A program made the translations under genes and the position numbers. The notes under the pieces are model-generated. The model worked only from the letters and a program-made list of their open reading frames with translations, did no database searches and was not told the DNA's origin. From Bacteroidaceae bacterium (GTDB lineage Bacteria > Bacteroidota > Bacteroidia > Bacteroidales > Bacteroidaceae), in assembly GCA_017524545.1 (NCBI GenBank), contig JAFXVN010000007.1, positions 1 through 54,170 on the forward strand: a DNA stretch of 54,170 nucleotides. The letters are read 5' to 3'. Below are positions 2,669-33,100 of the stretch, piece after piece. Every line of letters begins with the position of its first letter. Position 1 is the stretch's first letter.

Positions 2669-2841
2669 AAACGTCAAAAATCCGTTATTTATATAGTCGT
2701 AAATGACTTGAACTATAAACAGTTAGGAAAGTATGTACAATTCAAAGTGTTTGGTAATGAAACCTTTACGGCATTGTAAAATGTCGAGATGGAGATTTCG
2801 TAGTCATTCACGGACGTACAATAAAGTTCAAGTCATTATAA
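2669..2841 (+). pseudogene. Possible frameshifted small gene at the element end
   Basis: Two adjacent reading frames together look like one hydrophilic protein. The first frame reads NYKQLGKYVQFKVFGNETF before a stop near 2778-2780. The second continues as CRDGDFVVIHGRTIKFKSL to TAA 2839-2841. A single-base shift near 2775-2780 would join them. No clear ATG is present; TTG 2708 is a candidate. The last codons abut the comM fragment, so the end of the AT-rich element falls at about 2841. Support is weak. Confidence 0.25.
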
Positions 2842-3755
2842 TGATTGGTCCGCCGGGCAGCGGCAAAAGCATGTTGGCAAAGCGGCTGCCGAGCATCCTG
2901 CCACCCCTGTCGCTTCGCGAAAGCTTGGAGACGACGCAAATTCACTCCGTGGCAGGCAAGCTGAAGAACAACTGCTCGCTCATCGCCCAGCGTCCCTTCC
3001 GTGCGCCGCACCACACCATCTCGCAAGTGGCACTTGTTGGCGGAGGTGCCAACCCTCAGCCCGGCGAAATCAGCCTGGCACACAATGGTGTGCTTTTTGC
3101 CGATGAGTTGCCAGAGTTCCAGCGATCCGTTCTCGAAGTGTTGCGCCAGCCGCTTGAAGACCGCGTCATCAACATTTCGCGTGCCAAGTACGCCATCACC
3201 TACCCTTGTTCCTTTATGTTCATTGCCTCGATGAACCCCTGCCCCTGCGGCTACTACAATCACCCGGACAAGCACTGCTGCTGCACGCCCGGACAGATTG
3301 TAAAGTACCTGAACAAGATATCCGGCCCCCTACTCGACCGCATCGACATCCACTGCGAGATACAGCCCGTGCCCTTCGCCCAGCTCTCGCAGATGCAGCC
3401 GGGCGAGCCGAGTGCTGTCATACGAGAAAGAGTTATTAAGGCGCGGAAGATTCAGGAGGAGCGTTTTGCTCACCTCCCCCTCGGGGGAGGACGGGAGGGG
3501 GCTGTTCACTGCAATGCCCAGATGTCAGAGAAGATGCTCCATCAGTTTGCAGAACCCGATGCTGCATCAATGGACTTGCTTCGCATGGCAATGGAGCGCC
3601 TCAAGCTCTCAGCCCGTGCCTACAGCCGCATCCTAAAAGTCGCCCGTACCATCGCCGACCTCGCAGGCAGCGAAAAAATCCAGAGCCAGCATATTGGCGA
3701 AGCCATTGGCTACCGCAACCTCGACAGAAGTGATTGGGCTGAGAGGGGAATATAA
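2841..3755 (+). pseudogene. comM: 5'-truncated comM/yifB (Mg-chelatase-like AAA+ ATPase), fragment 1
   Basis: From codon 2841 the product reads MIGPPGSGKSMLAKRLPSIL, the Walker A of the YifB/ComM family. The rest of the Mg-chelatase core ([29 protein letters not shown]) and the C-terminal domain follow to the TAA at 3753-3755. ComM is a helicase used in natural transformation, usually about 510 aa; here the N-terminal ~200 residues are missing. The same frame stays open upstream to an ATG at 2733, but those 36 residues lie in AT-rich element DNA and look non-native. ATG 2841 could restart translation. An in-frame insertion LPLGGGREGA (about 3474-3505) matches a genomic repeat. Activity is unlikely without the N-terminal domain. 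Confidence 0.8.
3474..3502. repeat. CTCCCCC-GGGGGAG hairpin repeat inside comM fragment 1
   Basis: CTCCCCC, a 2-nt loop and GGGGGAG (3474-3489) are followed by GGGAGGGGGCT. The same unit occurs between genes at 37352-37380 and, more diverged, at 30107-30134, and in comM fragment 3 at about 19634. Here it is read in frame as LPLGGGREG between QEERFAH and VHCNAQM, where family members usually have a short link. Confidence 0.7.
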
Positions 3756-3797: not shown

Positions 3798-5777
<1,980 letters not shown>

Positions 5778-5888
5778 CTAAAAGACTGAAGTTTCGGAAG
5801 CTTTCAAATCCACGTGCCATGGTACAGGTATATTGCATTACTTGAACAGATACACAAAATTTACGACCACTAAAGTCATCGCATGTAT

Positions 5889-6071
5889 AGACATCCACTG
5901 CGAGATACAGCCCGTGCCAACAGCCGCATCCTCAAAGTCGCCCACACCATCGCCGACCTCGCAGGCAGCGAGCAAGTGCAGCCGATGCATATTGGCGAGG
6001 CCATTGGGTACAGAAACCTTGATAGAGGTGACTGGGCTGAAAGAGGGGTACATAAAAAAACGAAAGCATGA
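5889..6071 (+). pseudogene. comM: comM/yifB fragment 2, with internal deletion
   Basis: The sequence starts in the [10 protein letters not shown] codons and jumps directly to the [20 protein letters not shown] codons, then runs to the [13 protein letters not shown]-terminus. The jump falls exactly at an 11-bp repeat CAGCCCGTGCC that occurs twice in fragment 1 (3363-3373 and 3610-3620). Loss of the 247 bp between them changes the frame, so this copy cannot encode the domain. Its C-terminal part matches fragment 3 better than fragment 1. Confidence 0.85.
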
Positions 6072-6569: not shown

Positions 6570-6686
6570 ATGATGAAGTTAAGAAAAAACACCTACCACA
6601 TTATTTCTAACTCAAAGCGTTTGTCTAACGGAGGATTTTCTATGCTGAAAAATTTATGCGAAGTTTTTTTAACATACTTTAGATAA
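6570..6686 (+). CDS. Possible small protein (38 aa) at the head of the cluster
   Basis: ATGATG at 6570 opens a 38-codon frame ending at TAA 6684-6686. The product is basic at the N-terminus (MMKLRKNTYHIISNSKRL) and has a short hydrophobic stretch near the end (MLKNLCEVFLTYF). It is in a different frame from the next gene, 14 bases on. It could be a small peptide, a leader peptide, or the displaced N-terminal part of the gene at 6701. No family is recognised. Confidence 0.3.
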   Translation: MMKLRKNTYHIISNSKRLSNGGFSMLKNLCEVFLTYFR

Positions 6687-6700
6687 CAACGCAAAAGTAT

Positions 6701-7042
6701 TTGGGCAATGTGAAAAAAAAGAACAAAAACGGACATTGGGGACGATGTCGAATTGCATCAGAATTTGTATATACATTTTGCAAGCTATTGCATTTGAAAG
6801 GAGACTTTAAAATTAATATAATACATCAAGTACTAGGGAATGATATTCGTCAACGCGGACATGCGTGGGTGACTTGTGATGACAAAGATTTGTTTCTGAC
6901 ACCAGCTTATCGCCCACATACGATGATTAAAATCGGCGAGAGTAAAAAATATCGTTATTGGATTTCTACTAAATATACCCACTTTATAAGAACAAAGGTT
7001 AAAAAGGATACAAGACACCTATTATGGCAAATTTATATTTAA
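6701..7042 (+). CDS. Transglutaminase-like protein resembling lasso-peptide B2 leader peptidases
   Basis: This 113-aa protein starts at TTG 6701 or GTG 6710, with no ATG nearby. It has a Cys in GRCRIAS (residue 16) and a His in RGHAWV (residue 54), followed by acidic residues at 60-63. That spacing and the HAWV motif resemble the Cys-His-Asp core of PF13471 (B2-type) peptidases, which remove leaders in lasso-peptide and some other RiPP pathways. It is short for the family, lacking the N-terminal helices, and may be truncated. Its end overlaps the next gene by 19 bp, suggesting co-translation. It is a candidate for cutting the precursor at 9265, because the exporter has no peptidase domain. 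Confidence 0.45.
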   Translation: MGNVKKKNKNGHWGRCRIASEFVYTFCKLLHLKGDFKINIIHQVLGNDIRQRGHAWVTCDDKDLFLTPAYRPHTMIKIGESKKYRYWISTKYTHFIRTKVKKDTRHLLWQIYI

Positions 7043-7968
7043 CACACCATTGTTATCGGGGTTGTCCTTTTTGTTTTGCACGCAAAGTTTTGGCACAAAG
7101 GAAGAACCGCGACGAAATCCTGACGATGGAGGACATCATTAGGCTGTTAGATCATTATCACAATGACTTCCATACAATTGGACTGCTGGGCGGAGAACCA
7201 TTCCTATACCCACACCTCGCAGAGGTAATCCAGTTGCTGCATGAGCGACATATTATGTGTAAGATCTTCACCAGTGCAACCGATCCGATGCCAAAGGAAG
7301 TGGAGGTATTTCCTGCCACGATGGACTACGTGAATTTTGTCGTTAATGTCGGAGAACGTTCTACCTACAAAGAGGATCAATTCCAGAACCTTGAACATTT
7401 CTTCGAGAAATTTCACGAGGTGATTGCCCTTTCGTTCACCATTTTCGACCTAAATGCTGACCCAACTTTCTTGTTCGACATGATTGACAAATATCATTTG
7501 AGCCGATCAATTCGGACAGGCATTGCCTTGCCTATCTATCAGGGTGGTAATAAGTATATCATGCCCAACGAATACAAGAAAGCCGGCGAGTACTTCATCC
7601 GATGCGTCGATCAGGCCGCAGCGCGGCAGATCAGCATGAACATGGACTGTGGCTTCCAAGCCTGTATGTTCAACGACGAGCAACGCGGCCACCTGCTGCG
7701 TCAGGGTACACAGATGGAGTTTGTCTGCGGTGCAGCCATCGATATCGGTCCCGGTCTGCAAGCCTGGAACTGCTTTCCGCTGTTCCAACTCGGCTATGTC
7801 AATGCATTGGATGCCGACAACGAGGAGAACCTCACCAGACTGCTGCACGAACAAGTAGCCAAAGAAATAGGTAGCGAGTATGGCGTACGTCCAAAATGTA
7901 AAGACTGTAAATTCCTCGCATGCGGTCTTTGCCAAGGCGGCTGCCGCAGTTTCAAATCAATCAAATAA
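7024..7968 (+). CDS. Radical SAM enzyme with C-terminal Cys clusters (rSAM 1)
   Basis: This 314-aa protein has the radical SAM motif CYRGCPFC (Cys10, Cys14, Cys17) almost at its start, followed by LLGGEPFLYP (GGEP 56-59) for SAM binding. The C-terminal third is Cys-rich: CGFQAC, FVCGAAIDIGPG, then CKDCKFLACGLCQGGC. That arrangement is typical of SPASM or twitch domains holding auxiliary Fe-S clusters. Such enzymes modify peptide side chains, for example by forming C-C, C-O or C-S cross-links. It has no N-terminal recognition domain, so the PqqD-like protein at 8964 probably supplies precursor binding. It resembles rSAM 2 in length and motif position, suggesting duplication. Substrate is inferred from the neighbouring precursor. 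Confidence 0.85.
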   Translation: MANLYLTHHCYRGCPFCFARKVLAQRKNRDEILTMEDIIRLLDHYHNDFHTIGLLGGEPFLYPHLAEVIQLLHERHIMCKIFTSATDPMPKEVEVFPATMDYVNFVVNVGERSTYKEDQFQNLEHFFEKFHEVIALSFTIFDLNADPTFLFDMIDKYHLSRSIRTGIALPIYQGGNKYIMPNEYKKAGEYFIRCVDQAAARQISMNMDCGFQACMFNDEQRGHLLRQGTQMEFVCGAAIDIGPGLQAWNCFPLFQLGYVNALDADNEENLTRLLHEQVAKEIGSEYGVRPKCKDCKFLACGLCQGGCRSFKSIK

Positions 7969-7977
7969 TAGAAAAAA

Positions 7978-8937
7978 ATGCCGAATCTCATGCTGACAAA
8001 TTACTGCAACTACAAATGCAGTTATTGTTTCGGAAAAGATATCATGTTTCCCAAGAGTCCGCGCCAGCTGATGACGCGTGACTGCTTCAACGGCATTGTC
8101 GATTGGGTGAAGGAAGGTCCCTCCGACCGCATCTTCCACCTCATGGGCGGCGAGCCCACGCTGAACCCAGACATCGATTGGATGGTGGCACGCCTGTTGG
8201 AAGAAGACATGAACATCCTCATCTTCTCCAATCTTGCCACGCCAGGTGCCGTAGAGTTAGCTTCGAAGATAGCCCATCTGCCGGTGAACTGGGTTGTTAA
8301 TGTGAACGATCCCGCCCACTGGAATACTGCACAGCGCAAAAACATCACAGCCGCCCTTGAGCTTCTGAGAGAACGCGCCTGCCTGACCTTCAATATCATG
8401 CCCGATAAGGATGACAATATGTGGGCTCTGGAATACACCCAAAAGTACCATCTGAACAACAACATCAAGGTAGGTTTCCTGCTCCCAACATACAACCAGA
8501 CCAATGTGGCTCTCGACGACGATGAATACACCGTCGTGGCCGCCAAGGTGACACGTCTGGCACTCGAAGCCGCTAAATTCGATATTCACCTCGACTACGA
8601 ATGTGGAATCCCCACCTGCGCTTTCACCGATGAGCAGTTGGGCATTTTATGGCGCTGCGGCTCACAGCTACAGTCGGGATGCCAGAGCCGTCTCGACATC
8701 ACTCCCGAGGGCGATGTCATCTACTGCCTTCCCTTGGCCACTTTAGGCTCCAAGCATTACACGGAGTTCGACTGCTACAACGATGCCTGCATCTGGTTTG
8801 AGCAACGCTTTGCCCCCTATCGTAAGCTAGGACGCCGTATCGAATGTGCCACCTGCAACCTGCACAACTCCATGTCCTGCAATGCCGGTTGTCTGGCCAA
8901 GAACCTGATTAATTGCAAAAATGTGAACCTGTCTTAA
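7978..8937 (+). CDS. Radical SAM enzyme with C-terminal Cys clusters (rSAM 2)
   Basis: This 319-aa paralogue of rSAM 1 begins 9 bp after it. The CNYKCSYC motif has its three Cys at residues 10, 14 and 17, exactly as in rSAM 1, and MGGEPTLNP follows. The C-terminal half has CGIPTC, the strand LDITPEGDVIYCLPL typical of SPASM domains, and CATCNLHNSMSCNAGC. The shared block F(N/T)DEQ.G.L...G before the SPASM region shows common ancestry with rSAM 1. It may act on a different position of the same peptide or work as a pair with rSAM 1. Clusters of this kind modify ribosomal peptides; that role here is inference from context. Confidence 0.85.
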   Translation: MPNLMLTNYCNYKCSYCFGKDIMFPKSPRQLMTRDCFNGIVDWVKEGPSDRIFHLMGGEPTLNPDIDWMVARLLEEDMNILIFSNLATPGAVELASKIAHLPVNWVVNVNDPAHWNTAQRKNITAALELLRERACLTFNIMPDKDDNMWALEYTQKYHLNNNIKVGFLLPTYNQTNVALDDDEYTVVAAKVTRLALEAAKFDIHLDYECGIPTCAFTDEQLGILWRCGSQLQSGCQSRLDITPEGDVIYCLPLATLGSKHYTEFDCYNDACIWFEQRFAPYRKLGRRIECATCNLHNSMSCNAGCLAKNLINCKNVNLS

Positions 8938-8963: not shown

Positions 8964-9215
8964 ATGAAAGTACTTAACAATATCTCTTGGAAACAATTGA
9001 GTGACCGCGTGGTTGCCGTTGACACCAATAATGGTGACTACTACACTTTCAACGAGGTTGCCAGCACCATCTGGGTTGCTCTCAGTGAGGACAAGGCCAT
9101 CGAAGACATTGTGGCACAAATCATGGAGGAATACGACATTATCGATGCCGCCAAGGTGCGAAAAGATATCGACAGCCAACTTGCCCAGTGGCAGGAAATG
9201 AAACTCATCGCTTAA
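8964..9215 (+). CDS. PqqD-like RiPP recognition element (RRE) protein
   Basis: The chosen start is ATG 8964, giving 83 aa; a longer frame from 8913 overlaps rSAM 2 and lacks family-like sequence. The sequence follows the PqqD pattern: an N-terminal strand region (WKQLSDRVVAVDTNNGDYYT), FNEVASTIWVAL, then helices with DIVAQIMEEYDI and AAKVRKDIDSQL. PqqD-type proteins form a small winged fold that binds the leader of a RiPP precursor and presents it to radical SAM enzymes. It lies between rSAM 2 and the precursor gene, 49 bp upstream of the latter, as expected for a shared recognition subunit. Confidence 0.85.
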   Translation: MKVLNNISWKQLSDRVVAVDTNNGDYYTFNEVASTIWVALSEDKAIEDIVAQIMEEYDIIDAAKVRKDIDSQLAQWQEMKLIA

Positions 9216-9264
9216 CTCGCAGCACCCGTTGCTGCATCATCTATAATCTATAACAATAACAACA

Positions 9265-9432
9265 ATGAAACCCGTAAACAAAAAGTGCTATGCACAGCCG
9301 GAGACTGTCAAACACGCTTCCATGAACCTTGTGCAAGGTAGTAAGCTGTACTACACCACACTGTACACCAAGCTCTACTATACCACACTGTACACCAAGC
9401 TCTACTACACTACACTGTATTACTACCATTGA
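9265..9432 (+). CDS. Putative RiPP precursor with three Tyr/Thr-rich 9-residue core repeats
   Basis: ATG 9265 to TGA 9430-9432 encodes 55 aa. The first 26 residues look like a leader: basic start MKPVNKKCY, then QPETVKHASMNLVQGS. The rest is KLYYTTLYT, KLYYTTLYT, KLYYTTLYY, then YH. From Lys27 onward, 11 of 29 residues are Tyr and 8 are Thr. The three 27-nt repeats differ mostly at synonymous third positions (CTG/CTC, TAC/TAT, ACC/ACT), which argues that the peptide sequence is what is conserved. It follows the RRE gene and precedes a kinase gene by 6 bp, within a radical SAM cluster. I infer that it is the substrate. The only Cys (residue 8) is in the leader, so thioether chemistry on the core is excluded. 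Confidence 0.8.
   Translation: MKPVNKKCYAQPETVKHASMNLVQGSKLYYTTLYTKLYYTTLYTKLYYTTLYYYH
9343..9423 (+). repeat. Three tandem 27-bp repeats encoding the core units
   Basis: The units are 9343-9369, 9370-9396 and 9397-9423, each starting AAGCT and encoding KLYYTTLY plus Thr, Thr or Tyr. Unit 1 and unit 2 differ at two synonymous sites. Unit 3 differs by several synonymous changes and one Thr-to-Tyr change at the last codon. Confidence 0.9.
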
Positions 9433-9438
9433 TTCACC

Positions 9439-10443
9439 ATGGTAGCATATTCAGCGCATGTACAGCTGTCTGATATCATTGTCCGTTTTGAGAGTGATCG
9501 GGAGCGTGATATTTGTGAACTGAAGAGTTTCTTCAAATATCACCTCATTGATACCACTGATGAGAGCGACTGTACCGTAGTGTTGAAAAGACAAGCATCC
9601 TTTCACATGCCAAAGGATGCTGAGATGCTGTGGCAATCTCTACGCCACGGCGATGCGAAACCAGCTCGAAGGTTTGGACGACGACGCGTCAGCGTCCCTT
9701 CCAAGCTCAACACAAACGGCCTCGCCTCGTGTTATTATTCACGCGCCCGCGAAGAATACTATTATGGTCTGATGCTGGATCTGTCCTGGCTTTGCTACCA
9801 CCCGTTGGAGCATACCATCTATCACATTCTTCACCAACCTCCGCAGCGGAAGAACAAGGCTGTGGGCACCGAGGTGTCTAATCCGCTCAATGCCATGCCG
9901 CTGCTGATTCACGTCATCACCACCGTCCACGGCCGCTACCTGGCCCACGGCGCTGCCGTGGCCATCGACCACAAAGCCTCGTTGTTTCTCGGCAAGAGCG
10001 GCAGCGGCAAATCCACGTTAAGCACAGATCTCGCCCGACAGAAAGCCTCGTTCATGGGCGATGACCTGGTGCTTCTGTACACGAAGGATGGTGTGCCCAT
10101 GGTTGGCTCCCTGCTGCTGCAGGCGAAACTCTATATGGACAAGGCCGACGAGAAGAGCAGTGTCGATGTCCCCGCAGAGCTGCAGACCGACTACTGCCTC
10201 TCCGCCCCTCTGGAAGCCGTATATGCCGTACAACAGAATGGTCTGCCGATGTCCTCCGTGAAGCCACGCCCTGCCACAGAACTGCTGCAGCAGCTGATGG
10301 AAGCCTCCAATGGAATGATGATGCAGTACGACCGGCAACAGTGGCTCACCACCATGTACGCCATCAGCGAGCAGACACCCTACTACCTGCTTCATTATGG
10401 TGCCCGTTCCTCACTCACCACGTCACTCCTGAAAAACCGCTAA
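9439..10443 (+). CDS. HprK-like kinase 1
   Basis: This 334-aa protein has a C-terminal HPr-kinase-like fold. LAHGAAVAI (His170) precedes the P-loop GKSGSGKST (185-193), and MGDDLVLL (Asp208, Asp209) follows, matching the His, Walker A and ADD motifs of HprK-type kinases. The N-terminal ~140 residues are unassigned. Related stand-alone kinases occur in peptide clusters; in paeninodin-type lasso pathways they phosphorylate a precursor Ser. The gene begins 6 bp after the putative precursor, so translation is probably coupled. I infer phosphorylation of Thr, Tyr or Ser in the precursor, but no other substrate can be excluded. Confidence 0.75.
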   Translation: MVAYSAHVQLSDIIVRFESDRERDICELKSFFKYHLIDTTDESDCTVVLKRQASFHMPKDAEMLWQSLRHGDAKPARRFGRRRVSVPSKLNTNGLASCYYSRAREEYYYGLMLDLSWLCYHPLEHTIYHILHQPPQRKNKAVGTEVSNPLNAMPLLIHVITTVHGRYLAHGAAVAIDHKASLFLGKSGSGKSTLSTDLARQKASFMGDDLVLLYTKDGVPMVGSLLLQAKLYMDKADEKSSVDVPAELQTDYCLSAPLEAVYAVQQNGLPMSSVKPRPATELLQQLMEASNGMMMQYDRQQWLTTMYAISEQTPYYLLHYGARSSLTTSLLKNR

Positions 10444-10447
10444 CCCT

Positions 10448-11443
10448 ATGAATTCCTCCTCTTCTTTTGTGATGCAGATTGCAAATCTCTTCATCGAGAT
10501 CTGCGGTTTCGACGACGAGGAGTCAGTCTGCTTGGAGGAATTGAAACGTGTATTTCGCTATCACGAAGTGCAGGGAACCAAAGAATTTCACCATAGGATT
10601 ATCGTTTGTAAGCCAGATAAATACAATCTTCCGTCTAAAGCAGCACCACAATGGATAGCACCATGCCTGGGCGTAGCAGGAAGGATACCCAGCCGCAGGT
10701 CTTTTCTAGCTCGCGTCTTCGATAGGATCTTTGCCCGCCACGGGGTCAGACCCCTATTTGCCGGAACCTGTAATGTCCATTGCTACCGCGATGCAAACCG
10801 CCATACGGATTACTTCATTCCCGAGTATGGGGAGTGGCGCGTAGAGCACCACGCGGAAGAGCACATCACCTACGTCTATTCCGACAAGCCGCATCTCCAG
10901 TCCGACGGTCTCCCATCGATGCTACTCAATGTCATCGGGAGCCAGTACGGTTGCTATTTGGTCTTCGCCGCCTGCGTGGCCACCGACGAAGGAGCGCTGC
11001 TGCTGACAGGCAACAGCGGTGTAGGGAAATCCACGTTGTGCATGAAATACGTTCGCCAGGGTGCCGCCTACATGGGCGATGACCTGGTGCTGCTGTATCT
11101 CGACGGCGAGCGTGCGATGGCCGGTTCCCTGCTATTCCCGCTGAAGCACTACGCCGCCGGCGACCACCTCCACAAGCAACAGATGGATCCCCTCACCCTG
11201 TCGCCACATCGCCCGCCGCTGACGGCACCGCTGAAGGCCGTCTATCTGCTGCAGCGGGGCGAGGGCGCCGTGGATTCCGCGCCCCAGCGAATGCTCGGTG
11301 GGGAGATGCTTGGCATCCTACTCAAGCGAACGAACAGAGCTAACACGAATGCCGATGCCTTTCGTTTTGTCTCAACCCTGTCCGTTATCTGTGAAACTGT
11401 TCCTTGCTACCAACTGATTTTAGGCAACCATGACGAAGGATGA
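10448..11443 (+). CDS. HprK-like kinase 2 (paralogue with altered active-site His)
   Basis: This 331-aa protein is a paralogue of the preceding gene, 4 bp downstream. It shares the P-loop GNSGVGKST (188-196), MGDDLVLLY (Asp211, Asp212) and the downstream MAGSLLFPLKHY block. The HprK-type His found as His170 in kinase 1 is Phe173 here (YLVFAACVA aligned with YLAHGAAVA). It may have changed specificity, be a regulatory partner of kinase 1, or use different chemistry. The stop overlaps the start of the next gene, indicating one operon. Confidence 0.72.
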   Translation: MNSSSSFVMQIANLFIEICGFDDEESVCLEELKRVFRYHEVQGTKEFHHRIIVCKPDKYNLPSKAAPQWIAPCLGVAGRIPSRRSFLARVFDRIFARHGVRPLFAGTCNVHCYRDANRHTDYFIPEYGEWRVEHHAEEHITYVYSDKPHLQSDGLPSMLLNVIGSQYGCYLVFAACVATDEGALLLTGNSGVGKSTLCMKYVRQGAAYMGDDLVLLYLDGERAMAGSLLFPLKHYAAGDHLHKQQMDPLTLSPHRPPLTAPLKAVYLLQRGEGAVDSAPQRMLGGEMLGILLKRTNRANTNADAFRFVSTLSVICETVPCYQLILGNHDEG

Positions 11444-12818
11444 ACTACAAGCACTGCTGACTGGCCCCGACCTCATCTTCCGTCACGCGGCCATCGATGA
11501 TGTCGTCATGTCCTTCCCAGCACATGCCGACCTCTTCTTTGCCGCCTTCCACGAGGACGGCGCGTTGGCCAAGCAGTTGGCCGACGCTGCCCAGCAATGG
11601 ATGCCAGCGCTGCGCGAGGGCTACGATGACCTGTTGCCACCCTTTGCGTCGCCGGAGCGTTATACGACGTTTCTGTCGCTGGCAGCGTCCCATACGGTCT
11701 TCCTGCGTGAGATACACAAGGATCTCGCGCAGTTGGATTGTGCCGCAGCCCAACGTGCCATCGACACCCTGTGGTATTATTTCCCCGGCCTGCGAGGCGA
11801 TTTGCAGCGCAACGCCGCCTACCCGCAGCCCGAGGAACACCGCCAGCTGATGGTCTTCGTCACGGGCCAGTGCAACCTGCATTGTCCCTATTGCTTCTCC
11901 AAGGAGCTGCAGCGGTCCTCCATCTCTCAGACGGACATGCTCCGCATCCTGGCGTGGGCCGAGCGCTGCCATGTGCAGTCGCTGCTGCCGTGCGGCGGCG
12001 AGCCGCTGTTGTATGAGCACATGGATTGGCTCATGCGTGAGGTGGCAGCGCGCGGTCTGAAGATGTACTTCGCCACCAACCTGAGCGTTCCCCTGCCGGA
12101 GGCGATGCTGAGTAGCTGCCACGACGCCATCGGCCAGCTCCACGTGCATCTGACCGACGAGCTCTTCCGCAACCCGTCGCTGCTGTCTACGTTCCTCCAT
12201 AACCTACAGCTTTGTCGCGAGCATGGCATCGACATCATCCTGCGCGGCAACGTCTATGGCGGCGAGGCGCAGCAGCCCTACGACGAATGGTTCGGCATGG
12301 CCAAGGACTACGGCCTCGAAGCCCTCAACGTGGCCCTCACGATTCCCAGCCACACGGGCAGCAACCGCTTCGTCTCCTTCGAGGCGATGCAGGCGCTGAC
12401 GCCGCAGCTCCGCTACGTCTGGGAGCAGGGCCGCGAGCGCGATATCCGCGTCTCCATCGCCAAGCCCCTGCCGCTGTGCCTGTTCCCCGAGGAGATGGCC
12501 CTCGACATTCTCCGCCACGACTACAACGCCAGCTACTGCAATGTCGGCGAGGACAGCGGAATGCATAACCTGTCGCTATCTACCGACCTGCGCTTCTCGC
12601 CCTGCCTGGGCGTGGATGAGCCCAGCGTGCCGTTCGCCGACGACCTCTCGTGGGACACGCTCCGTAGCGTCTTCAGCCCCGCCGTCCGCGCGTTACAGTC
12701 GCAGCCGCTATTTGAGCGCTGCCAAGGCTGCTTCCTGTACCACCGCCGGCTCTGTCAGGGGGCGTGCCTGTCGTATAAACAAACCAGCAGAAATGGAGGT
12801 GTGCCATGCGCAGGATAA
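11430..12818 (+). CDS. Radical SAM/SPASM-type enzyme with extra N-terminal domain (rSAM 3)
   Basis: This 462-aa protein has an N-terminal helical region of about 140 residues of unknown type, then QCNLHCPYC (Cys148, Cys152, Cys155), LPCGGEPLLYE, and a Cys-rich end with YCNVGEDSG, RFSPCLGV and CQGCFLYHRRLCQGAC. The C-terminal pattern is that of SPASM auxiliary-cluster domains in peptide-modifying enzymes. The N-terminal extension may take the place of a recognition domain. The start overlaps the kinase 2 stop by 14 bp and the end overlaps rSAM 4 by 13 bp, so the genes are tightly coupled. GC is higher than at the cluster's 5' end. Confidence 0.85.
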   Translation: MTKDELQALLTGPDLIFRHAAIDDVVMSFPAHADLFFAAFHEDGALAKQLADAAQQWMPALREGYDDLLPPFASPERYTTFLSLAASHTVFLREIHKDLAQLDCAAAQRAIDTLWYYFPGLRGDLQRNAAYPQPEEHRQLMVFVTGQCNLHCPYCFSKELQRSSISQTDMLRILAWAERCHVQSLLPCGGEPLLYEHMDWLMREVAARGLKMYFATNLSVPLPEAMLSSCHDAIGQLHVHLTDELFRNPSLLSTFLHNLQLCREHGIDIILRGNVYGGEAQQPYDEWFGMAKDYGLEALNVALTIPSHTGSNRFVSFEAMQALTPQLRYVWEQGRERDIRVSIAKPLPLCLFPEEMALDILRHDYNASYCNVGEDSGMHNLSLSTDLRFSPCLGVDEPSVPFADDLSWDTLRSVFSPAVRALQSQPLFERCQGCFLYHRRLCQGACLSYKQTSRNGGVPCAG

Positions 12819-13825
12819 ATGACATCGTCCGTCGGTGGTGCCGCTCGCTGGACCGCAAATACCTGCGGCCGGGCTATGAGCCGCACCTGCCTGACCAGAT
12901 CAATATCGAGACGGCCAGCGTCTGCAACCTGCGCTGCTCCTGCTGTCCCCACGGCGCCGCCCGCAGTGCCATGCGCAAGCCGGGAATCATGAGCGTGGAG
13001 ACCTTCCGCCGCGTGCTCGACCATCTCGACATCCCCCTCAAGCACGCCTATCTGCACATGCATGGCGAGCCGTTCCTGAACCCCAACCTCCCGACCTTTG
13101 TGGAGGAGCTGACACAGCGGCAGATCACCGTCAGCCTCTACAGCAACTGCACTGCGGCCGACGAGGACAAGCTGAAGGCCATCCTGCCCCTGCGCCACGT
13201 CACCATGAACTTCTCCGCCGACCTGCTCGGACAGCAATACTACGAGTCCATCCGCGTAGGGGCACGCTACAGCGACACCCTCGACAAGCTGGACATCGTC
13301 AACGCCCTGTTCGCCCGCCACAACAGGTTCTTCAACATCACCATCGTCACCGACAGCGCCTTCGCCCCCCACGCCGACGATCTCTACGACCACTGCCAGC
13401 GCCTCTTCACACGCTATACCCAGCTCAACGGCATCCTTCTCGGCAGTCGTTTTCCTTGGCCACGTCTGCCATGGACAGGCAACCTCACCAACCATCTCTC
13501 AAAGGAGCGCCAGCGATGCAACCACGCCTTCGAAGGCCTCAGCATCCTATGGAACGGCAATGCCACGATGTGCAGCTTCGACTACACCGGCGAGTGTGTC
13601 GTGGGTTCCCTGCTCGACGCCACCTACACCCAAGTCTTCAACAACCCCGCCGCACGCCGCTTCCGCGCCCTCCACTGGCGACACCGCGACACCGCGCTCC
13701 CGCTCTGCAACGACTGCCTGCTGGACCGCTATGTGCCGTCGTCCGTGAAGCTGCATAGGGCGGGATTCCTCAAACAAGACAGACATGAAACCCAACAAAT
13801 CATCCAATCCCTCTTCCGGCATTGA
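12806..13825 (+). CDS. Radical SAM enzyme with SPASM-like C-terminus (rSAM 4)
   Basis: This 339-aa protein has VCNLRCSCC (Cys40, Cys44, Cys47; an additional Cys at 46) and LHMHGEPFLNP, a variant of GGEP with His-Gly. The C-terminal part has RCNHAFEGLSILWNGNATMC followed by a Cys pair (CNDC), as in SPASM enzymes. It is more distant from rSAM 1 and 2 and closer to general SPASM enzymes that act on peptides or small molecules. It overlaps both neighbours (rSAM 3 and the ABC exporter). A tailoring role on the peptide is inferred from this operon position. Confidence 0.82.
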   Translation: MRRINDIVRRWCRSLDRKYLRPGYEPHLPDQINIETASVCNLRCSCCPHGAARSAMRKPGIMSVETFRRVLDHLDIPLKHAYLHMHGEPFLNPNLPTFVEELTQRQITVSLYSNCTAADEDKLKAILPLRHVTMNFSADLLGQQYYESIRVGARYSDTLDKLDIVNALFARHNRFFNITIVTDSAFAPHADDLYDHCQRLFTRYTQLNGILLGSRFPWPRLPWTGNLTNHLSKERQRCNHAFEGLSILWNGNATMCSFDYTGECVVGSLLDATYTQVFNNPAARRFRALHWRHRDTALPLCNDCLLDRYVPSSVKLHRAGFLKQDRHETQQIIQSLFRH

Positions 13826-15500
13826 CAAGCTGTCCCTCGAGAGCCTCCTCCGCGAGTGGGGCATCCTGAAGTTCGCGTGGCAGATGGCCGAGCGCTACCA
13901 CCTACCCCTCTTCGTGGTGATGGTGCTGGAGATCCTCATCGGCATCCTCCCCGCCCTCGCCATCTACCTCTTCCAGGACGCCGTCAGCGGAGCCGGCCAC
14001 GATATCCTCAGCCTCGTCACCAAGGAGAACTTCATCTATATCATCCTCTTCCTCTTCGTCTATCTCCTGCTACAGAAGGGCATCAGCATCATCACCACCT
14101 ACGCCATCATCGATGTGGAGTACAATATCCGCATGCGCTACCTCTCCAAGATCATCGCCCTCTCCATCGAAGATATCTCCAAGAACCTGGACAGCCGCTC
14201 GGCCTTCAGTATGACGCGCGAGACCTCTATGACCAGCGGCCTCATCCCTATGGTCTACCGCTCCTTCTTGCAGGCTCCCGTGGCCATCGTCTCAGCCATC
14301 ATACTACTCCTCGTCATCTCACCCCGAATGCTCGCCGTTGTCACGGTCATGATGGTTGTCATTGTCAGCATCAGCTTGCTGCTACGCAGCCGTCTAAAGC
14401 AGTTCCACCGCGAGCAGTTCGATGCCACAAGTTCCCTTCTGCAGTATTTCAACGAATGGCTCTCGGGTCACCGTATCTTCCAGGTTTATGGCGCTGAGGG
14501 TTTCTACCAGCAGAAGATGACCTCCGCTTTCGACCAGATTGCCGATGTCAGCCGCCGCCACAAGCTATACAGCACCGCACAATCCATCCTCGTGGAGATC
14601 CTCACCTATGTCGCCGTCATCCTCTTCATTGTCTTCCTGGCCGACGGCCACGGCAGTATCTACATCGGCATCGTCATCTCCTTCCCTGCCATGATTCTCC
14701 TCATCCGCGGCGAGATCCTCAAGCTCGTCGGCGGCTACCAGCAGCTGGCCAACACCGAGAGCTCCATCTCCCGCCTCCAGCTCGTCCTGCAGATGCCAGA
14801 GCCTACGGACACAGGCTTCGAATGGAACGAACAAATCACTGCCGTAGACCTCCGCGACCTCTCCTATGCCTACGACGCGCAGGCGCCCATCCTCAGCCAT
14901 GCCAACCTACAGCTCGCACAAGGGCGTCTCAACGTCCTCACTGGTCCCAACGGCACCGGCAAGAGCACCACCATCAACCTCATCCTCGGTCTCTTCCGCC
15001 CACAGGAAGGAGCCGTCCTCTACAACGGCAAGGACATCCGCGACTACACCACCGCCACTCTTCTCTCCCAGTTCGCCATCGTCGAACAGGAACCTTTTGT
15101 TTTCCAAGGCACCCTCCTCGACAACATCACCCTCGGGCGCGACATCAATGAGGACACCATCCGCCGCTACCTCCATGACTTCGCCCTCGACTACCTCATG
15201 AACGATAACGGCGACCTTTCCCTAAAGATAGGTGCCAAAGGCCGCGCGCTCTCCTCCGGCGAAAAACAACGTCTAGCGCTCATACGCGCCCTCGCAGGCA
15301 GTCCCTCCGTCATCATCCTCGACGAGCCGACCAGCAACATCGACTACGCCTCCTCGGCCCTCATCCATAGTGTGATGCACAACCTCTCCGCCCACCATCT
15401 GGTCATCTGCGTCAGCCACGATCCAGCTATCACCGCCGACAATGATGCCAACACCTTCCATATAGAACATGGAAATTACCTACAACGCCACGCCCTCTGA
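13785..15500 (+). CDS. ABC exporter, fused membrane and ATPase domains, no peptidase domain
   Basis: This 571-aa protein has about six transmembrane helices between residues 35 and 330 and an ATPase domain after about 345. The ATPase shows Walker A GPNGTGKSTT (near 386), the Q-loop region VEQEPFVFQGT, the signature LSSGEKQRLAL and Walker B VIILDEPTSNID. It is a half-transporter that should work as a dimer. There is no N-terminal C39 peptidase, so leader removal must be done by another protein. The start lies inside the end of rSAM 4. Export of the modified peptide is the likely role. Confidence 0.88.
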   Translation: MKPNKSSNPSSGIDKLSLESLLREWGILKFAWQMAERYHLPLFVVMVLEILIGILPALAIYLFQDAVSGAGHDILSLVTKENFIYIILFLFVYLLLQKGISIITTYAIIDVEYNIRMRYLSKIIALSIEDISKNLDSRSAFSMTRETSMTSGLIPMVYRSFLQAPVAIVSAIILLLVISPRMLAVVTVMMVVIVSISLLLRSRLKQFHREQFDATSSLLQYFNEWLSGHRIFQVYGAEGFYQQKMTSAFDQIADVSRRHKLYSTAQSILVEILTYVAVILFIVFLADGHGSIYIGIVISFPAMILLIRGEILKLVGGYQQLANTESSISRLQLVLQMPEPTDTGFEWNEQITAVDLRDLSYAYDAQAPILSHANLQLAQGRLNVLTGPNGTGKSTTINLILGLFRPQEGAVLYNGKDIRDYTTATLLSQFAIVEQEPFVFQGTLLDNITLGRDINEDTIRRYLHDFALDYLMNDNGDLSLKIGAKGRALSSGEKQRLALIRALAGSPSVIILDEPTSNIDYASSALIHSVMHNLSAHHLVICVSHDPAITADNDANTFHIEHGNYLQRHAL

Positions 15501-15894
15501 CCTCCAGCAACAAGTGCATGCAACGCTCCTCCTCAAGACCTTCGACGCCCTCTGTGCCAAAGCCTGTAGACGTTTCACGCTCATGCCTTTGAAAAGGATC
15601 GACCTCGTCCACAGCTTCTATGCCGACACACTCGACCGCGAGTTCAAGGACTTCGACCAGCTCGTCCTGCCAACGAAACACACCACAGACTTTGTGACCA
15701 TGTTGCCACAAAACGGCTATCGACCCGAGTTCGCCTTTCCCATTGACCCAGTAGCCTTGGCCGAAAAGCTGATGGCCCCCAAACTCTCGTCCTCCTATTC
15801 TATGTGCATCTGTGCTTATGACTTCCTTCGGCCTGCTGCTGCACACGGCGCAATACCATATCGTTTCCACCGTCCATTGCTGTTAGCCCTATGA
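15469..15894 (+). CDS. Truncated NTP_transf_5-like protein
   Basis: This 141-aa protein resembles the first ~110 residues of the nucleotidyltransferase-like gene at 17456. MPLKRIDLVHSFYADTLDRE aligns with PLKGIDLLQTIYSERLDRP, and KDFDQ aligns with RDIDI. The acidic pair is kept but the Gly before Ile-Asp is Arg, and the remaining two thirds of the family domain are missing. The last 30 residues look unrelated, which suggests a frameshift or a fusion. It overlaps the ABC exporter end by 32 bp and the next gene by 4 bp. It may be a decayed copy or a small binding protein. Confidence 0.5.
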   Translation: MEITYNATPSDLQQQVHATLLLKTFDALCAKACRRFTLMPLKRIDLVHSFYADTLDREFKDFDQLVLPTKHTTDFVTMLPQNGYRPEFAFPIDPVALAEKLMAPKLSSSYSMCICAYDFLRPAAAHGAIPYRFHRPLLLAL

Positions 15895-16760
15895 AACATC
15901 GTATTGTTTGTTGCTGTATCTTTTTCGCAGCAGTCATCGCAGCCGTGACCTTATCTTCGTGTAAGGATGACAATGAGCCCCCAAAGCCCTACGAGGTACA
16001 ATACACCGACAACGCCATCCTCTTCACTGTCCGAGGAGCCACTTTCACGATGATTCGTGTGGAAGGCGGCACTTTCGAGATGGGTGCCACCAACGAACAG
16101 GGCCTTGACGACCCCGACAACAACGAATATCCCGTACACACGGTCACCCTCTCCTCTTTTTACATCTGCCAGACCGAGGTGACACAAGCGCTGTGGCAAG
16201 CCGTGATGAACGAGAACCCCTCTTTAATTCATGGCAAAAAAACATTACCTGTGGATTGCGTCAAATGGGACATGTGCCAGAACTTCATCGCCACCCTCAA
16301 CGAGATCCTGGAAAACCAGTTTGAATTCCGAATGCCCACCGAAGCCGAATGGGAGTTCGCGGCCCGTGGCGGAAACCATAGCCAAGGCTACAAATACGCG
16401 GGCAGCAATCGTGTGGACGAAGTGGCGTGGTATGATGCCAACTCCGATGCCAAGACACACCCCGTAGCCTCGAATAAACCCAACGAACTTGGGCTCTACG
16501 ATATGAGCGGTAACCTCTGGGAGTGGTGCTACGACTGGCAAGGATACTACCAGCCCTCCCCACAAACCAATCCCGACGGTCCCGACGAAGGCACACATCA
16601 TGTCATGCGCGGTGGCAGCTGGACCTATGATGCCACCTTCTGCCGTGTCAGCCGCCGTAATTATCTCTCCAGCGTCATCCGTGCCTCCAACTGTGGGCTA
16701 CGTCTCGCAATGACTTTTGACAGTCGTATTTTCATTGATTTGGATAGCTTATCTCAATAA
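15891..16760 (+). CDS. Lipoprotein with SUMF1/FGE-sulfatase-like domain
   Basis: The 289-aa product has a signal peptide with lipobox LSSC (Cys at about 24) and then a complete SUMF1-type domain: RVEGGTFEMGAT, TEVTQALWQAVM, FRMPTEAEWEFAARGG, NELGLYDMSGNLWEWCYDW, VMRGGSW and NCGLRLA. True formylglycine-generating enzymes need two C-terminal Cys; only a single Cys (DATFCRVSRR) lies in that region, so classic activity is doubtful. Many Bacteroidota have such lipoproteins of unknown role. It is coupled to the preceding gene by a 4-bp overlap, so it is probably in the cluster's transcript and acts outside the cytoplasm. Confidence 0.8.
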   Translation: MKHRIVCCCIFFAAVIAAVTLSSCKDDNEPPKPYEVQYTDNAILFTVRGATFTMIRVEGGTFEMGATNEQGLDDPDNNEYPVHTVTLSSFYICQTEVTQALWQAVMNENPSLIHGKKTLPVDCVKWDMCQNFIATLNEILENQFEFRMPTEAEWEFAARGGNHSQGYKYAGSNRVDEVAWYDANSDAKTHPVASNKPNELGLYDMSGNLWEWCYDWQGYYQPSPQTNPDGPDEGTHHVMRGGSWTYDATFCRVSRRNYLSSVIRASNCGLRLAMTFDSRIFIDLDSLSQ

Positions 16761-17330: not shown

Positions 17331-17455
17331 GTGAAAAATCTGACATGACAAAATCCATGGCAACTTTTTGTTACCCAGGAATTTACAAAGAAAGTTAAAC
17401 TAAAGTGCTGCGGATTTTAGGGAGAAATAATATCCTTATCAGTTTTTATACAATA

Positions 17456-18424
17456 ATGACACCTTTCGACAATACACATCCTTTCCACGATGCTGATTTG
17501 GCTCGTACATTACTTGTTCTCGACAATTACGAATGGATTAAACAGCAAGCAGCGGACATTGGAGTGAGTGTTATTCCTCTGAAAGGAATCGACCTGCTTC
17601 AGACAATCTATTCCGAAAGATTGGATCGTCCTGTGCGCGACATTGACATATTCTGTCGATGCGAGAAGGATTGTCTCCGATTGGTTGAGCGGTTATGTCA
17701 AAAGGAATATCATTTAGCGTTTCCCTTCTCCTTGTACCCAAAAGTGTTGGCAACAAAAAGAAAGGTCGTGCTGTTATCATGTAATCCTAACAAGGTGAAT
17801 ATCGACATTCATATGGCCTTTGTTACCAAGAATTTTTTCTCGCGAACCATCGGCTCCTTCAACGAGGATGCCTTGCATCGATGTACTGACAATTGCATGG
17901 AGGCGACAGACCGTTGGCTGTTTCTGGCTCAACATGCCGCTTTCCATGCCTTTTCCGACAGGAAGTGGATTCGTGACCTGTATCTTCTTTTCAACACTTT
18001 TAAGCCTGAACAGCAGGCAGTTTTGCGTGAAAAGGCACGGACCTATGGCTTTCGACGTGTGATGCTAGCAACAATCAACTGCGTCTTTATGCATGAAGAA
18101 TCGCTACAGAAGGAGCAGTTTTCTGCGTTTGATCTTTCTCATTCTGAAAGACGGGTTCTGCGATTCGTCAATAGTTTCCACCGGCCCTTCGGTCGCAGTC
18201 CTATAGATCGCCTCATCACCTCATACTGGGAATTTGTGTTCATAGACCATCGCATCGACCGATTCCGCATGTGGCAACAGCTGATGTTCCCTTCATCTGG
18301 CATACTTACCAACATGTATCGCATTCGCAGGCCTATTGCCTTCTGGTTCTACTATCCGCTAAATTTCCTCATTTCTGGATTTTCGAGTGTTTTCTTTTTG
18401 ATAATTTATTTGCTACGATCATGA
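17456..18424 (+). CDS. NTP_transf_5-like nucleotidyltransferase family protein
   Basis: ATG 17456 gives 322 aa; the open frame extends upstream to 17405, but that segment is short and not family-like. Motifs are PLKGIDLLQTIY (41-52) and RDIDIF (Asp62, Asp64), then DIHMAF and FLAQHAAFHAFSDRKWIRDL, as in the PF14907 family. Members of this family often sit in RiPP and surface-polysaccharide clusters, with role mostly unproven; nucleotidyl transfer to a peptide or sugar is suspected. The C-terminus is hydrophobic and may attach to the membrane (LNFLISGFSSVFFLIIYLL). GC is lower than in the core of the cluster, hinting at a separate origin. Confidence 0.7.
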   Translation: MTPFDNTHPFHDADLARTLLVLDNYEWIKQQAADIGVSVIPLKGIDLLQTIYSERLDRPVRDIDIFCRCEKDCLRLVERLCQKEYHLAFPFSLYPKVLATKRKVVLLSCNPNKVNIDIHMAFVTKNFFSRTIGSFNEDALHRCTDNCMEATDRWLFLAQHAAFHAFSDRKWIRDLYLLFNTFKPEQQAVLREKARTYGFRRVMLATINCVFMHEESLQKEQFSAFDLSHSERRVLRFVNSFHRPFGRSPIDRLITSYWEFVFIDHRIDRFRMWQQLMFPSSGILTNMYRIRRPIAFWFYYPLNFLISGFSSVFFLIIYLLRS

Positions 18425-30139: not shown

Positions 30140-33100
30140 TTATTGCTGTGCCATGATGTCGAGGATGGCAACGAAGTCGGCAATGTCAACCTTCTGGTCG
30201 CCGTTCAGGTCGGCAGCTGCGTCGTAGCCGCTGGCAGCCATGATGTCGAGAACAGATACTGCATCGGCAATGTCAACCTTGCCATCACCATTGAGGTCGC
30301 CCTCAATGCTGCCACCTACGCTGATGCCGTTGCCGGGAGTGACAACAACCTTGTTGTCGGTGGGAATAGTGTAGCGGCTGAAGGTCTCAGTGCTTGCAGA
30401 AGCAACATAGAGGTTGTCGGCATAGTCGAATGCCAAAGCCGTGATGCGGCTCTCGCCAACACTGAAGGTCTTCTTCGGGTTGAGGAAAATCTTGCCATTC
30501 TCCATAGGAACATAGTTGGTCTCGTAGAGAACAACCTTGCCATTGTCCGTAGGAATAGCGAGGAAGTTGCCATTGGAGGTGACAGCGATTCTGCCACCGA
30601 CAGTGGTGGAGCTGGTGTTGCTGTAGTCCTCGTTGCCCTCTGCATCGAAGTGCTTGATGGCAGGAATCTCGGCAGATACGTCGCTGCGACGCTGGATGTA
30701 CCAGAGACCGCCCTGACCGTCCTCGTAGATACCTACATCGACAGGAGACTTGGTGTAAACACCGTCGAGAGGCTCGAAGTTGGCAGAGGGAGCAGCTGTC
30801 CATTCGGTAGCAGTACCCAAGTTGTAGATAGAGCAGTTGTAGTCGGTGATGTTGTAGTCACCGTTGCTGCGCTGTGCACCCAGAACGTACATCTTCAGGT
30901 CTTCGCCCTGGCCGTCGAATGCCAAGCTGAGGGCCATGCGGTTCTGTTCTTCGTCGCCTACGTAGGTGATACCTGTCTGCTCGTCGAGTTCACCGCCAGT
31001 GAAGACAGGCTTCCAAGCCTCGTCGAGGTTCTCAGGATTGATTTCCCAAACAGAGCTGTTGCTGGTGCCGGAAGCACGAGCCACGAAGAGACGGCCGTCA
31101 TCGGTGAAGCGGAGGTCCTTGAGGTCGTACTTGTAGGTGCCTGCAATAACGAGAGGAGTCTCGCCCTGGATTGGGAGACCGCCGTAGAAACCGGGAGTGC
31201 CGTCGGCTGCGTTGATGGGCTGGAAGTCAGGATCGAACGCATAGATAGCACCAGGCTTTTGGCTGGACATGTAGCCTGTTTCGGGCTCTTCAGGATAAGA
31301 CTCGGCAATGAGTACCTGACCGAAGCCCTTGCTTGCAGGATTGTTGTTGATAGCCATACCATAGGGGCCCCAAACCTTCAGCGATTCGCCAACCTTGGAC
31401 ACTTCGAGTGAACCCTTGCCAGTCACAGCAATCTTGAAGTTGAGTGCTGTAGGCTCGCTTCCAAGTTCGCTTGCAGGAACAGTTACCTTGTGGGCGCCTG
31501 CTGTGAAGACTTCGTTGGAGACTGCGGTGTAAACCTGCTCTTCGCCATTGTAGAAGTTAACTTCAACGGCTTCAGCCTCTGCGTTGAGGTCGAAACTTAC
31601 GACAACATTGCTGCCTGCCAGTTTAGCATCGACATTATATGCAAAGGCATTGAGCTGGATGTTGGGCTTTTCGTTGATGTATCTGCCGGCATAGTAGTAA
31701 ACAGTAGGACCGTCGAACAGATGAGGTGTTGCATCCTCACCGATGGTCTGGAACCAATACGGATTCTCGCTTGAGCTGCCATTCAGCTTCCAAGCAATCT
31801 CACCGCTTGCCAGCTGATCGGCACTTACAAGTGTACCTTGCTGACCACGGAAGTACTGGGAAACAAAGACATTCGTTGCGCTGGCACCTGAACCACGTGC
31901 GATAGTCTGGGAGTTGTCGCCCTCTGCACCGACATTGATGTACTCGGAGGTAATCAGGGTGTTCTTAATCACAAGAGCTGAAGCAGCCCAACCTGCGACA
32001 CCACCAACATACCAGATGGGGCTTTCGCCTTCACCAATAAGCTGACAGTTGACGAGACAGTTGCTGATAAGGCTGTTTGCACTGCCGTTGTAACCAATCA
32101 AACCACCAGAAGAAGCATCGCCTGCGAGGTTAGAAGCAAAGTGCATGGCAACTTCAACCTGACAGTTATCGATGGTGCTCTTGCCGGACATATAACGTGT
32201 AACGGGACCAGAGAACTGATGGCTGGTATAGAATTCACCAGTCAGCTTGAGGTTCTTGACGGTAGCGTTCTGCAACTCGTAGAACATCGTAGCGGGATCG
32301 CCTTCCTGCATTCCAGAGAAGTATGTGTCTCTCATATAGACATTGGTAAGGGCATGACCCTGACCGTCGAACTCGCCGGCGAAGATGTGAACAGCGTTCT
32401 CATTCTTGTTGTGACCGATGGGCAGCATTGCAACACCTGTCAAATCAATGTCAGCCGTGAGCTTGGCCTTGGCATACTTGTCAACTTCGCTGGCAATGGT
32501 GCGATAAGTGGCAAACTGCTTGAGATTACCAACCAGATAGTAGCCGTCCTCGTCCTGTGTCGGAATAATCTCTGCAACAGCAGGATCAAGGTTCTTCAGC
32601 TTGGCAGCCTCTATAGCCTCTTCAGCGCTGAAAGTGCCATTCTGGTATGCATCGAAGATATCGTCATAGGCGTCATAGAGGATGTCTTGGTCGGCTTCGT
32701 TGATTACCGATTCACCAATCATGAACCAATCGCCAGTTTCCTCGTCTTTCTCCATCAATTCCAGATTGCCCCATTCGAAAGCCGTAATGGTTTCTGCAGC
32801 CTTGTAGAGTTGCACGTATGCCTGCTTGCCTACGTAGATGCCCTCGAAGGCCTCGGAGAACTTGGCTACGATAGCAGCCTTGGCCTCTGTGGTCTCTGCA
32901 CCATCAATCTCGGCAACAGCGTCTATAAGTGCATTCTTCAGTGCTTCGGGGTAGTTGGGAGCAGCTGCTGCGTTGTCATAGTCAAACTCATACTCGATGA
33001 TGGTCTGAGCACGAGCTGCCATGTTCTGCAGCACCTTGTCGAGAGCTTCGCCAGCCATAGCGTCCTCTGCCTCACCGCAGTAAACGACCTTGATGGCACT

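Follow-up and report, generated by a model that had tools for sequence, protein, structure and literature searches.

A Leu-Tyr-rich precursor peptide beside PqqD-type and radical SAM genes in a Bacteroidaceae contig: a probable RiPP pathway

Bacterial peptides that are built from repeated short units may be modified unit after unit by the enzymes encoded next to them. In the contig analysed here (the window, 54,170 nucleotides from a Bacteroidaceae bacterium) an ORF of 55 residues containing three near-identical repeats lies among genes for a PqqD-type RiPP recognition element (RRE), radical SAM enzymes and HprK-like kinases, which raises the question of whether it encodes a genuine precursor and what its neighbours might do to it. 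An earlier note had proposed that the ORF is an overlooked precursor with a PqqD-like partner, in which each 9-residue repeat, KLYYTTLYT, is a unit of modification kept by selection. Taken as a whole this reading was partly supported: the precursor, the selection on the peptide, the PqqD partner and a varying number of units all stood, but the 9-residue repeat did not hold as a general unit.

The short ORF, its relatives and its leader

The ORF translates as MKPVNKKCYAQPETVKHASMNLVQGSKLYYTTLYTKLYYTTLYTKLYYTTLYYYH and is present in a single copy in its own genome. The codon changes reported among its 27-nt units (CTG/CTC, TAC/TAT, ACC/ACT) were borne out on inspection. Copies 2 and 3 have 93% and 81% nucleotide identity to copy 1; units 1 and 2 are the same nonapeptide, separated by two synonymous changes, and unit 3 has three such changes relative to unit 1 and Tyr in place of Thr at residue 9, which leaves eight of the nine positions constant, as described before. 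A direct count also gave 19 Tyr or Thr among the 29 residues that begin at Lys27, as had been stated.

Relatives were gathered through the second radical SAM enzyme (rSAM2). In a genus-level search it was matched in 5 of 139 genomes, its own included, and the other four matches comprised three strong ones (57, 84 and 97% identity) and a weak one (34% over 77 residues). Of the precursors of the three strong relatives, one had three similar units with a small insertion, another had other linkers, and another had a single LYYTT unit. A species-level genome collection was then scanned with a four-sequence rSAM2 alignment, giving 28 loci, of which 23 were Bacteroidales (50-97% identity) and carried taxon labels such as Prevotellaceae, Muribaculaceae, Rikenellaceae, Tannerella and Odoribacteraceae, among others; deer or water buffalo was named for six of them. 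The remaining five (L044-L048; 24-35% identity, not Bacteroidales) were left out, and no precursor was found in them by motif. The related loci are from metagenome or uncultured assemblies and were taken with at most 10 kb of flank on each side, and counts of 24 below refer to the window plus the 23 Bacteroidales loci. All 23 had a homologous short ORF beside PqqD, a conservation that bears out the idea of a real precursor. Since the loci were gathered through rSAM2 alone, precursors lacking this enzyme would escape.

The gene family is rare in the genome samples searched. A profile built from the 24 precursors matched 3 of 399 genomes sampled from the family, 2 of 393 from the order and 1 of 395 from the phylum, its own genome being in each sample, and the first, four-sequence profile matched 2 of the 399. 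The third family match (L056, E 0.001) had no precursor or cluster in its 3.1 kb sequence. Some further matches repeated known precursors, that of L037 in L049 and L055 (genome G467) and that of L034 in L050 (G641). The three genus relatives were not among the family-sample matches, though the profile detects them when targeted; it recovers 5 of 5 known genomes, a partly circular figure as their sequences are in the profile. When the 24 precursors were scanned with NCBIfam, one member only had a match, to an unrelated family (0.029).

Eight leader residues (Y, P, T, H, V, Q, G and S) were invariant in the 24 sequences, forming a YxxPxT motif and then VQGS, with His at Tyr+8 and the Ser of VQGS at Tyr+17 in every case, and a variable N-terminal extension. 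NLVQGS may mark the leader end, as first suggested. The PqqD-like partner was present at all 23 loci, in agreement with the earlier note. Compared with the PDB at E<=0.1, its profile had four matches, TbiB1 (4.5e-13), PbaB1 (1.6e-07), TfuB1 (3e-05) and, weakly, LppB (0.026), all of which are treated as lasso or LPP RREs in the available text of the LPP paper, where [Y/W]xxP is given as the motif bound by these RREs (PMC13381572). Lasso PqqD models were matched by all 24 PqqD proteins at E<=0.001, with the window copy under the model cut-offs. The same text reports that Asp70 of LppB is hydrogen-bonded to the leader Tyr (PMC13381572); from the aligned sequences we infer that it corresponds to Asp68 of the window protein, a position occupied by Asp in 23 of 24 members and by Glu in L024. 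The position aligned with the Phe that divides the LppB pocket was not Phe in the 24 proteins. As far as its sequence goes the leader is lasso/LPP-like, and recognition by the RRE through YxxP is very probable.

Leu-Tyr units and selection on the core

The core unit seen most often in the family was a pentad resembling LYxTT. The exact KLYYTTLYT was found only in the window and in its closest relative, L021, and the 8-mer KLYYTTLY also in L022 and L043, so that the 9-residue repeat, sound in the window, failed as a family-wide unit; the window 9-mer is itself one LYYTT-type pentad plus a four-residue piece. As a general unit it was rejected, since the commonest LY spacing across the family was 5 and several cores were irregular. 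In the 21 distinct cores, Tyr came directly after 82 of 84 Leu residues and His after the other two, against a shuffled mean of 34 LY, and 40 of the 61 steps from one LY pair to the next measured 5 residues, against a shuffled mean of 1.5; none of 5000 shuffles attained the observed LY count or the observed spacing count. This near-strict pairing points to the Leu-aromatic pair as the likely modification site. In composition these cores were 42% Tyr, 18% Leu, 17% Thr and 7% Ser. Pentads run head to tail in L033 after the first Gly (LYYTT/LYYTT/LYYTS/LYYTT/LYYSR) and in L038 after the first Thr (LYSTT/LYSTT/LYSGG/LYYTS/LYYYY). A strict unit rule was poorly fitted, because L024, L037, L039 and L041 have irregular cores and because only 48 of the 66 LY pairs with two preceding core residues have nothing but T, S, V or G there, leaving 18 without such a pair ahead of them. 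The comparison of homologues confirmed that the unit number differs, with 2 to 6 LY or LH per core.

Most cores (14 of the 21) end in YYYH (8) or YYYY (6). Cores ending in Arg or Lys occurred only at loci in which the third radical SAM enzyme (rSAM3) went undetected (3 of 4 distinct cores vs 0 of 17; Fisher 0.003, post hoc), an association that is a lead only, because related loci are not independent. A C-terminal His was seen only together with rSAM3 (10 of 17 vs 0 of 4 distinct cores; Fisher 0.09, post hoc).

The claim that selection acts on the peptide held: purifying selection was evident in the core, and L034 and L035 give the clearest case. These two encode an identical 23-residue core, their 17 differences in it all being synonymous (pS 1.02 vs pN 0), and their leaders differ by 13.5 synonymous and 5.5 nonsynonymous changes. 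The window and L021 differ by 6 synonymous and no nonsynonymous changes over 28 alignable core codons, the site where T faces YSS being excluded, and by 3 synonymous and 1 nonsynonymous changes in the leader. The core was less constrained between L027 and L029 (6.5 synonymous, 4.5 nonsynonymous over 16 codons), and the precursors of L026, L028 and L030 are nearly identical, giving little information on selection. The synonymous excess supports both coding and core constraint, and on these comparisons the ORF is almost certainly a genuine RiPP precursor.

The gene set and a proposed pathway

Twelve genes of the window, from the transglutaminase-like to the FGE-type gene, share one orientation and either overlap or lie no more than 49 nt apart (Table 1). 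Gene counts were made by tblastn with the window proteins and a few proteins of relatives over the 23 loci.

Table 1. Features of the precursor locus, with database matches and occurrence among the 23 related loci
Feature	Position	Strand	Remarks
Transglutaminase-like small protein	6710-7042	+	GTG start at 6710 chosen by us; candidate leader peptidase, lasso B2-like
Radical SAM enzyme 1 (rSAM1), C-terminal Cys cluster	7024-7968	+	Pfam Radical_SAM 1.3e-13; 23/23 loci
Radical SAM enzyme 2 (rSAM2), search bait	7978-8937	+	Pfam Radical_SAM 8e-11; 23/23 loci
PqqD-type RiPP recognition element, lasso B1-like	8964-9215	+	Pfam PqqD 1.7e-14
Precursor peptide ORF	9265-9432	+	ATG to TGA; YxxPxT..H and VQGS in leader, Leu-Tyr units in core
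Three 27-nt direct repeats	9343-9369, 9370-9396, 9397-9423	+	Each one LYYTT pentad plus a second LY
HprK-like kinase A	9439-10443	+	Hpr_kinase_C 8e-05, under gathering score; 23/23 loci
HprK-like kinase B, second copy	10448-11443	+	Hpr_kinase_C 3e-06, under gathering score; 4/23 loci
Radical SAM enzyme 3 (rSAM3), N-terminal extension and C-terminal Cys cluster	11430-12818	+	Radical_SAM 8.5e-07, just above gathering score
Radical SAM/SPASM enzyme 4 (rSAM4)	12806-13825	+	Radical_SAM 3.7e-12, SPASM 6.2e-10; 23/23 loci
MsbA-like ABC exporter, no matched peptidase domain	13785-15500	+	19/23 loci
NTP_transf_5-type nucleotidyltransferase, shortened in window assembly	15469-15894	+	141 aa; Pfam NTP_transf_5 0.033

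All four radical SAM proteins of the window have CxxxCxxC. Eight further Cys residues of rSAM2 were invariant over 24 sequences in a SPASM-like arrangement, with no match to the Pfam SPASM model, and the nearest solved relative of its profile was 8vpo (8.2e-09), which is among the structures used in checking RRE models in the available text of PMC12710340. In seven loci (L026-L030, L032, L033) rSAM2 lies downstream of rSAM4. rSAM3 was found in 17 of the 23 loci and not in L026, L028, L030, L033, L040 or L043. rSAM1 was aligned in 4 sequences and rSAM3 in the window plus 16 of the 17 loci (L038 out).

A transglutaminase-like homologue was found in 22 of the 23 loci, the 23rd being at a contig edge. 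Cys, Asn and GHAW were invariant in the 19 aligned proteins (the window and 18 of the 22 loci, with L026, L028, L030 and L034 out and three starts set by us), three of which, the window copy not among them, matched Transglut_core3 at E<=0.01; the profile had no convincing solved relative in the PDB (best 0.27). An apparent fusion of this protein to rSAM1 in L026, L028 and L030 (a 425-aa reading) was rejected, as a stop lies just ahead of rSAM1. The kinase P-loop and GDD were invariant in 18 aligned proteins, namely both window copies and 16 of the 23 loci (L030, L031, L034-L037 and L041 out). Sequences were omitted from the transglutaminase-like, kinase and rSAM3 alignments for truncated or merged ends, and L030 as near-identical to copies that were in. 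The exporter was not found at 4 of the 23 loci, and no peptidase domain was matched in the 4 exporters scanned out of 20. An NTP_transf_5 relative was found in all 23 loci; that of L021 has 333 aa (1.9e-22).

Several other features were observed in or near these loci. A second NTP_transf_5 gene lies downstream in the window at 17405-18424. An FGE-sulfatase-domain protein (15891-16760) was found, like kinase B, in 4 of the 23 loci, those closest to the window. A DUF6056 protein lies near the cluster in six of the 23 loci (L020 at 6674-8188, on the same contig as L032, and L024, L026, L028, L030 and L033). Upstream in the window, a ComM/YifB-like (Mg_chelatase) piece (2733-3755) and a duplicate of its C-terminal end (5883-6071) stand on either side of a gene (3828-5777) whose product has sialate acetylesterase and esterase domains. 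Two adjoining very long ORFs on the minus strand (30140-37141 and 37385-44284; 2333 and 2299 aa) had no Pfam match at E<=1e-5. The exact pattern that we take to be the Bacteroidetes-type promoter had six matches in the window and none near the cluster; the promoter scan gave 12 against 9.0 expected and the terminator scan 6 against 9.8 expected.

The reading that we favour, with a probability of roughly three in four for the pathway as a whole, is that the ORF encodes the precursor of a radical-SAM-modified RiPP made on a chassis of the lasso/LPP type. The PqqD protein would bind the leader through YxxPxT, and rSAM1, rSAM2 and rSAM4, with rSAM3 where present, would then modify the Tyr-rich core, the Leu-aromatic pairs within the pentads being the most likely sites. 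The core would be modified repeatedly, probably by carbon-carbon or ether cross-linking. Cyclophane and Arg-Tyr radical SAM RiPPs, in which an aromatic residue is a cross-link partner, are the model for this chemistry. That the radical SAM enzymes act on the core is very likely; that the cross-links run through the Leu-Tyr unit is a more tentative proposal. As for processivity, TvgB is described in the available text of PMC9062424 as a single radical SAM enzyme that modifies successive repeats.

The later steps would fall to the other conserved proteins. The transglutaminase-like Cys/His protein would cut off the leader, possibly just ahead of QGS; lasso leader peptidases contain a transglutaminase-like domain, according to the available text of PMC10885120, and the window protein is probably the leader protease. 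The HprK-like kinase would phosphorylate a residue with a hydroxyl group, the invariant VQGS Ser being the likeliest target. A leader ending at Val would make this Ser residue 3, as in LPP. LppK is reported to put several phosphates on Ser3 of the LPP core, with none detected when Thr or Tyr stood there (PMC13381572, available text), and by analogy we give an even chance to action of the kinase on the invariant Ser, whose invariance could equally reflect protease recognition. The NTP_transf_5 enzyme may put a sugar on the phosphate added by the kinase, as in pseudomycoidin, where the available text describes a kinase and a nucleotidyltransferase that yield a phosphorylated, hexosylated C-terminal Ser (PMC8498205). 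This action is uncertain, because deletion of lppN was without effect in the host used and LppK was inactive on the Thr and Tyr variants (PMC13381572, available text). The finished product would be exported by the MsbA-like transporter.

Other readings and known systems

An LPP-like linear polyphosphorylated peptide, in which phosphorylation of the invariant Ser would be the main event and the radical SAM changes minor or directed at a partner (a sugar, for instance), is improbable. In its favour, the RRE, HprK-like kinase, NTP transferase and MsbA-like exporter are common to LPP clusters, the leader Y, P and H are spaced as in the LPP consensus, and rSAM3 is dispensable. Against it, rSAM1 and rSAM4 were found in all 23 loci (as was rSAM2, which served as bait), and radical SAM enzymes are unmentioned in the main text of the LPP paper, where the C termini of LPP precursors are described as highly variable (PMC13381572), in contrast to the Leu-Tyr pairs kept here. 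The archaeal-type SpI peptidase was also not found in the own genome (TIGR02228, 0 matches in an assembly 92% complete; control positive in 8 of 14).

A multi-core precursor, each repeat being excised as a small peptide or a Tyr-derived cofactor as modelled on multi-core RiPPs and PQQ/mycofactocin, would account for near-identical repeats in varying number and for the Lys ahead of each window 9-mer. It is quite improbable given that no constant inter-unit residue was found, that the head-to-tail pentads of L033 and L038 have no Lys, and that some family members are irregular. The extreme Tyr content of the cores would suit a largely unmodified peptide, either a self-assembling Tyr/Thr-rich beta fibre or a surface or metal-binding peptide, but three or four radical SAM genes accompany the precursor in all 23 loci, and we regard this reading as very improbable.

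A lasso peptide with unusual tailoring would agree with the lasso-like RRE, the transglutaminase-like protein, the kinase and the nucleotidyltransferase. The ring acceptor of lasso peptides is Asp or Glu at core position 7-9, and it is missing here, because the 21 distinct cores have no Asp and only two Glu, none of these in the window core. No Asn_synthase-type cyclase (PF00733) was found on the window contig; a search of the own genome gave three matches, on other contigs only (C73 and C74), and a cyclase working from another contig is excluded by the core sequence only. A macrolactam lasso peptide is thus largely refuted at this locus and extremely improbable. A chance or non-coding repeat, for which the shortness of the ORF and the overlapping antisense ORF (9241-9429) might speak, is refuted: homologues adjoin PqqD in 23 of 23 loci, the core is constrained with mostly synonymous divergence, and the antisense frames of L034 and L035 have stops or many amino-acid changes, so that the antisense frame is not the conserved one there.

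For the radical-SAM-modified RiPP that we prefer, what recurs in all 23 loci is a short precursor with a conserved leader and a distinct core beside radical SAM genes. Known radical SAM systems differ from it in their details. Bacteroidales GG-leader radical SAM RiPPs (Fernandez-Cantos et al. 2023; PMC10352776, available text) come from the same order and are likewise radical SAM based, but have GG-motif leaders and peptidase-containing transporters, whereas no GG cleavage motif was present in the leaders of the 24 precursors, whose conserved stretch ends in VQGS. The TvgA/TvgB poly-cyclopropylglycine pathway (PMC9062424, available text) has a repeat-built precursor modified repeat by repeat in turn, but its TVGG repeats are modified at Val, the gene set is another and there are no Leu-Tyr units. 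Among the best 25 families per protein, the maturase models scored the window enzymes under their cut-offs; the SynChlorMet ScmC, ScmD, ScmE and ScmF models gave the window proteins 22.2 bits at most, the cut-offs being 100 to 400, although the ScmD model was matched by 14 of the 24 PqqD members at E<=0.001. We assign the cluster to radical SAM RiPPs on a lasso/LPP chassis because the window contig has no cyclase, SpI was not found in the own genome, the leaders have no GG motif and the four exporters scanned no peptidase domain, and the window proteins did not reach the SynChlorMet cut-offs.

No description of such a cluster was found in a literature search that covered open-licence PubMed Central only, so an earlier description is possible. 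A new RiPP class, in which radical SAM enzymes replace the cyclase or SpI on this chassis and SPASM-type enzymes join Leu to the neighbouring Tyr or His along the pentad chain, giving a Leu-Tyr(His) ladder with a phosphate or phosphosugar on an N-terminal Ser (QGS), is a speculative and rather unlikely extension; if true, it would combine radical cross-linking with peptide polyphosphorylation, and no such hybrid came up in the searches made here. The family provides 21 distinct natural cores that share a single Leu-aromatic rule, on which the enzymes' substrate logic can be tested directly.

LPP clusters (Popov et al. 2026; PMC13381572, available text) share the discrete RRE, the HprK-like kinase, the NTP transferase and the MsbA-like exporter, all of which the window has, although its NTP gene is shortened and a paralogue lies downstream, and also a leader with YxxP, His at Tyr+8 and a Ser downstream of the motif. 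Of the consensus YxxPxVLxHQxIxFETxxS the Y, P and H spacing was matched and the remainder was not kept (Ser at +17 vs +18), and LPP uses SpI, whereas the window cluster has a transglutaminase-like protein, radical SAM genes and Leu-Tyr cores. The lasso peptides paeninodin and pseudomycoidin (PMC8498205, available text) share a B1-type RRE, a transglutaminase-type B2 protein, an HprK kinase, a nucleotidyltransferase and an ABC exporter; unlike these, the window contig is without the macrolactam cyclase, a C-terminal Ser is absent from all 21 distinct cores, and radical SAM enzymes are added. If the favoured reading is true, RRE/kinase/nucleotidyltransferase systems of the lasso and LPP kind would here be joined with radical SAM peptide chemistry.
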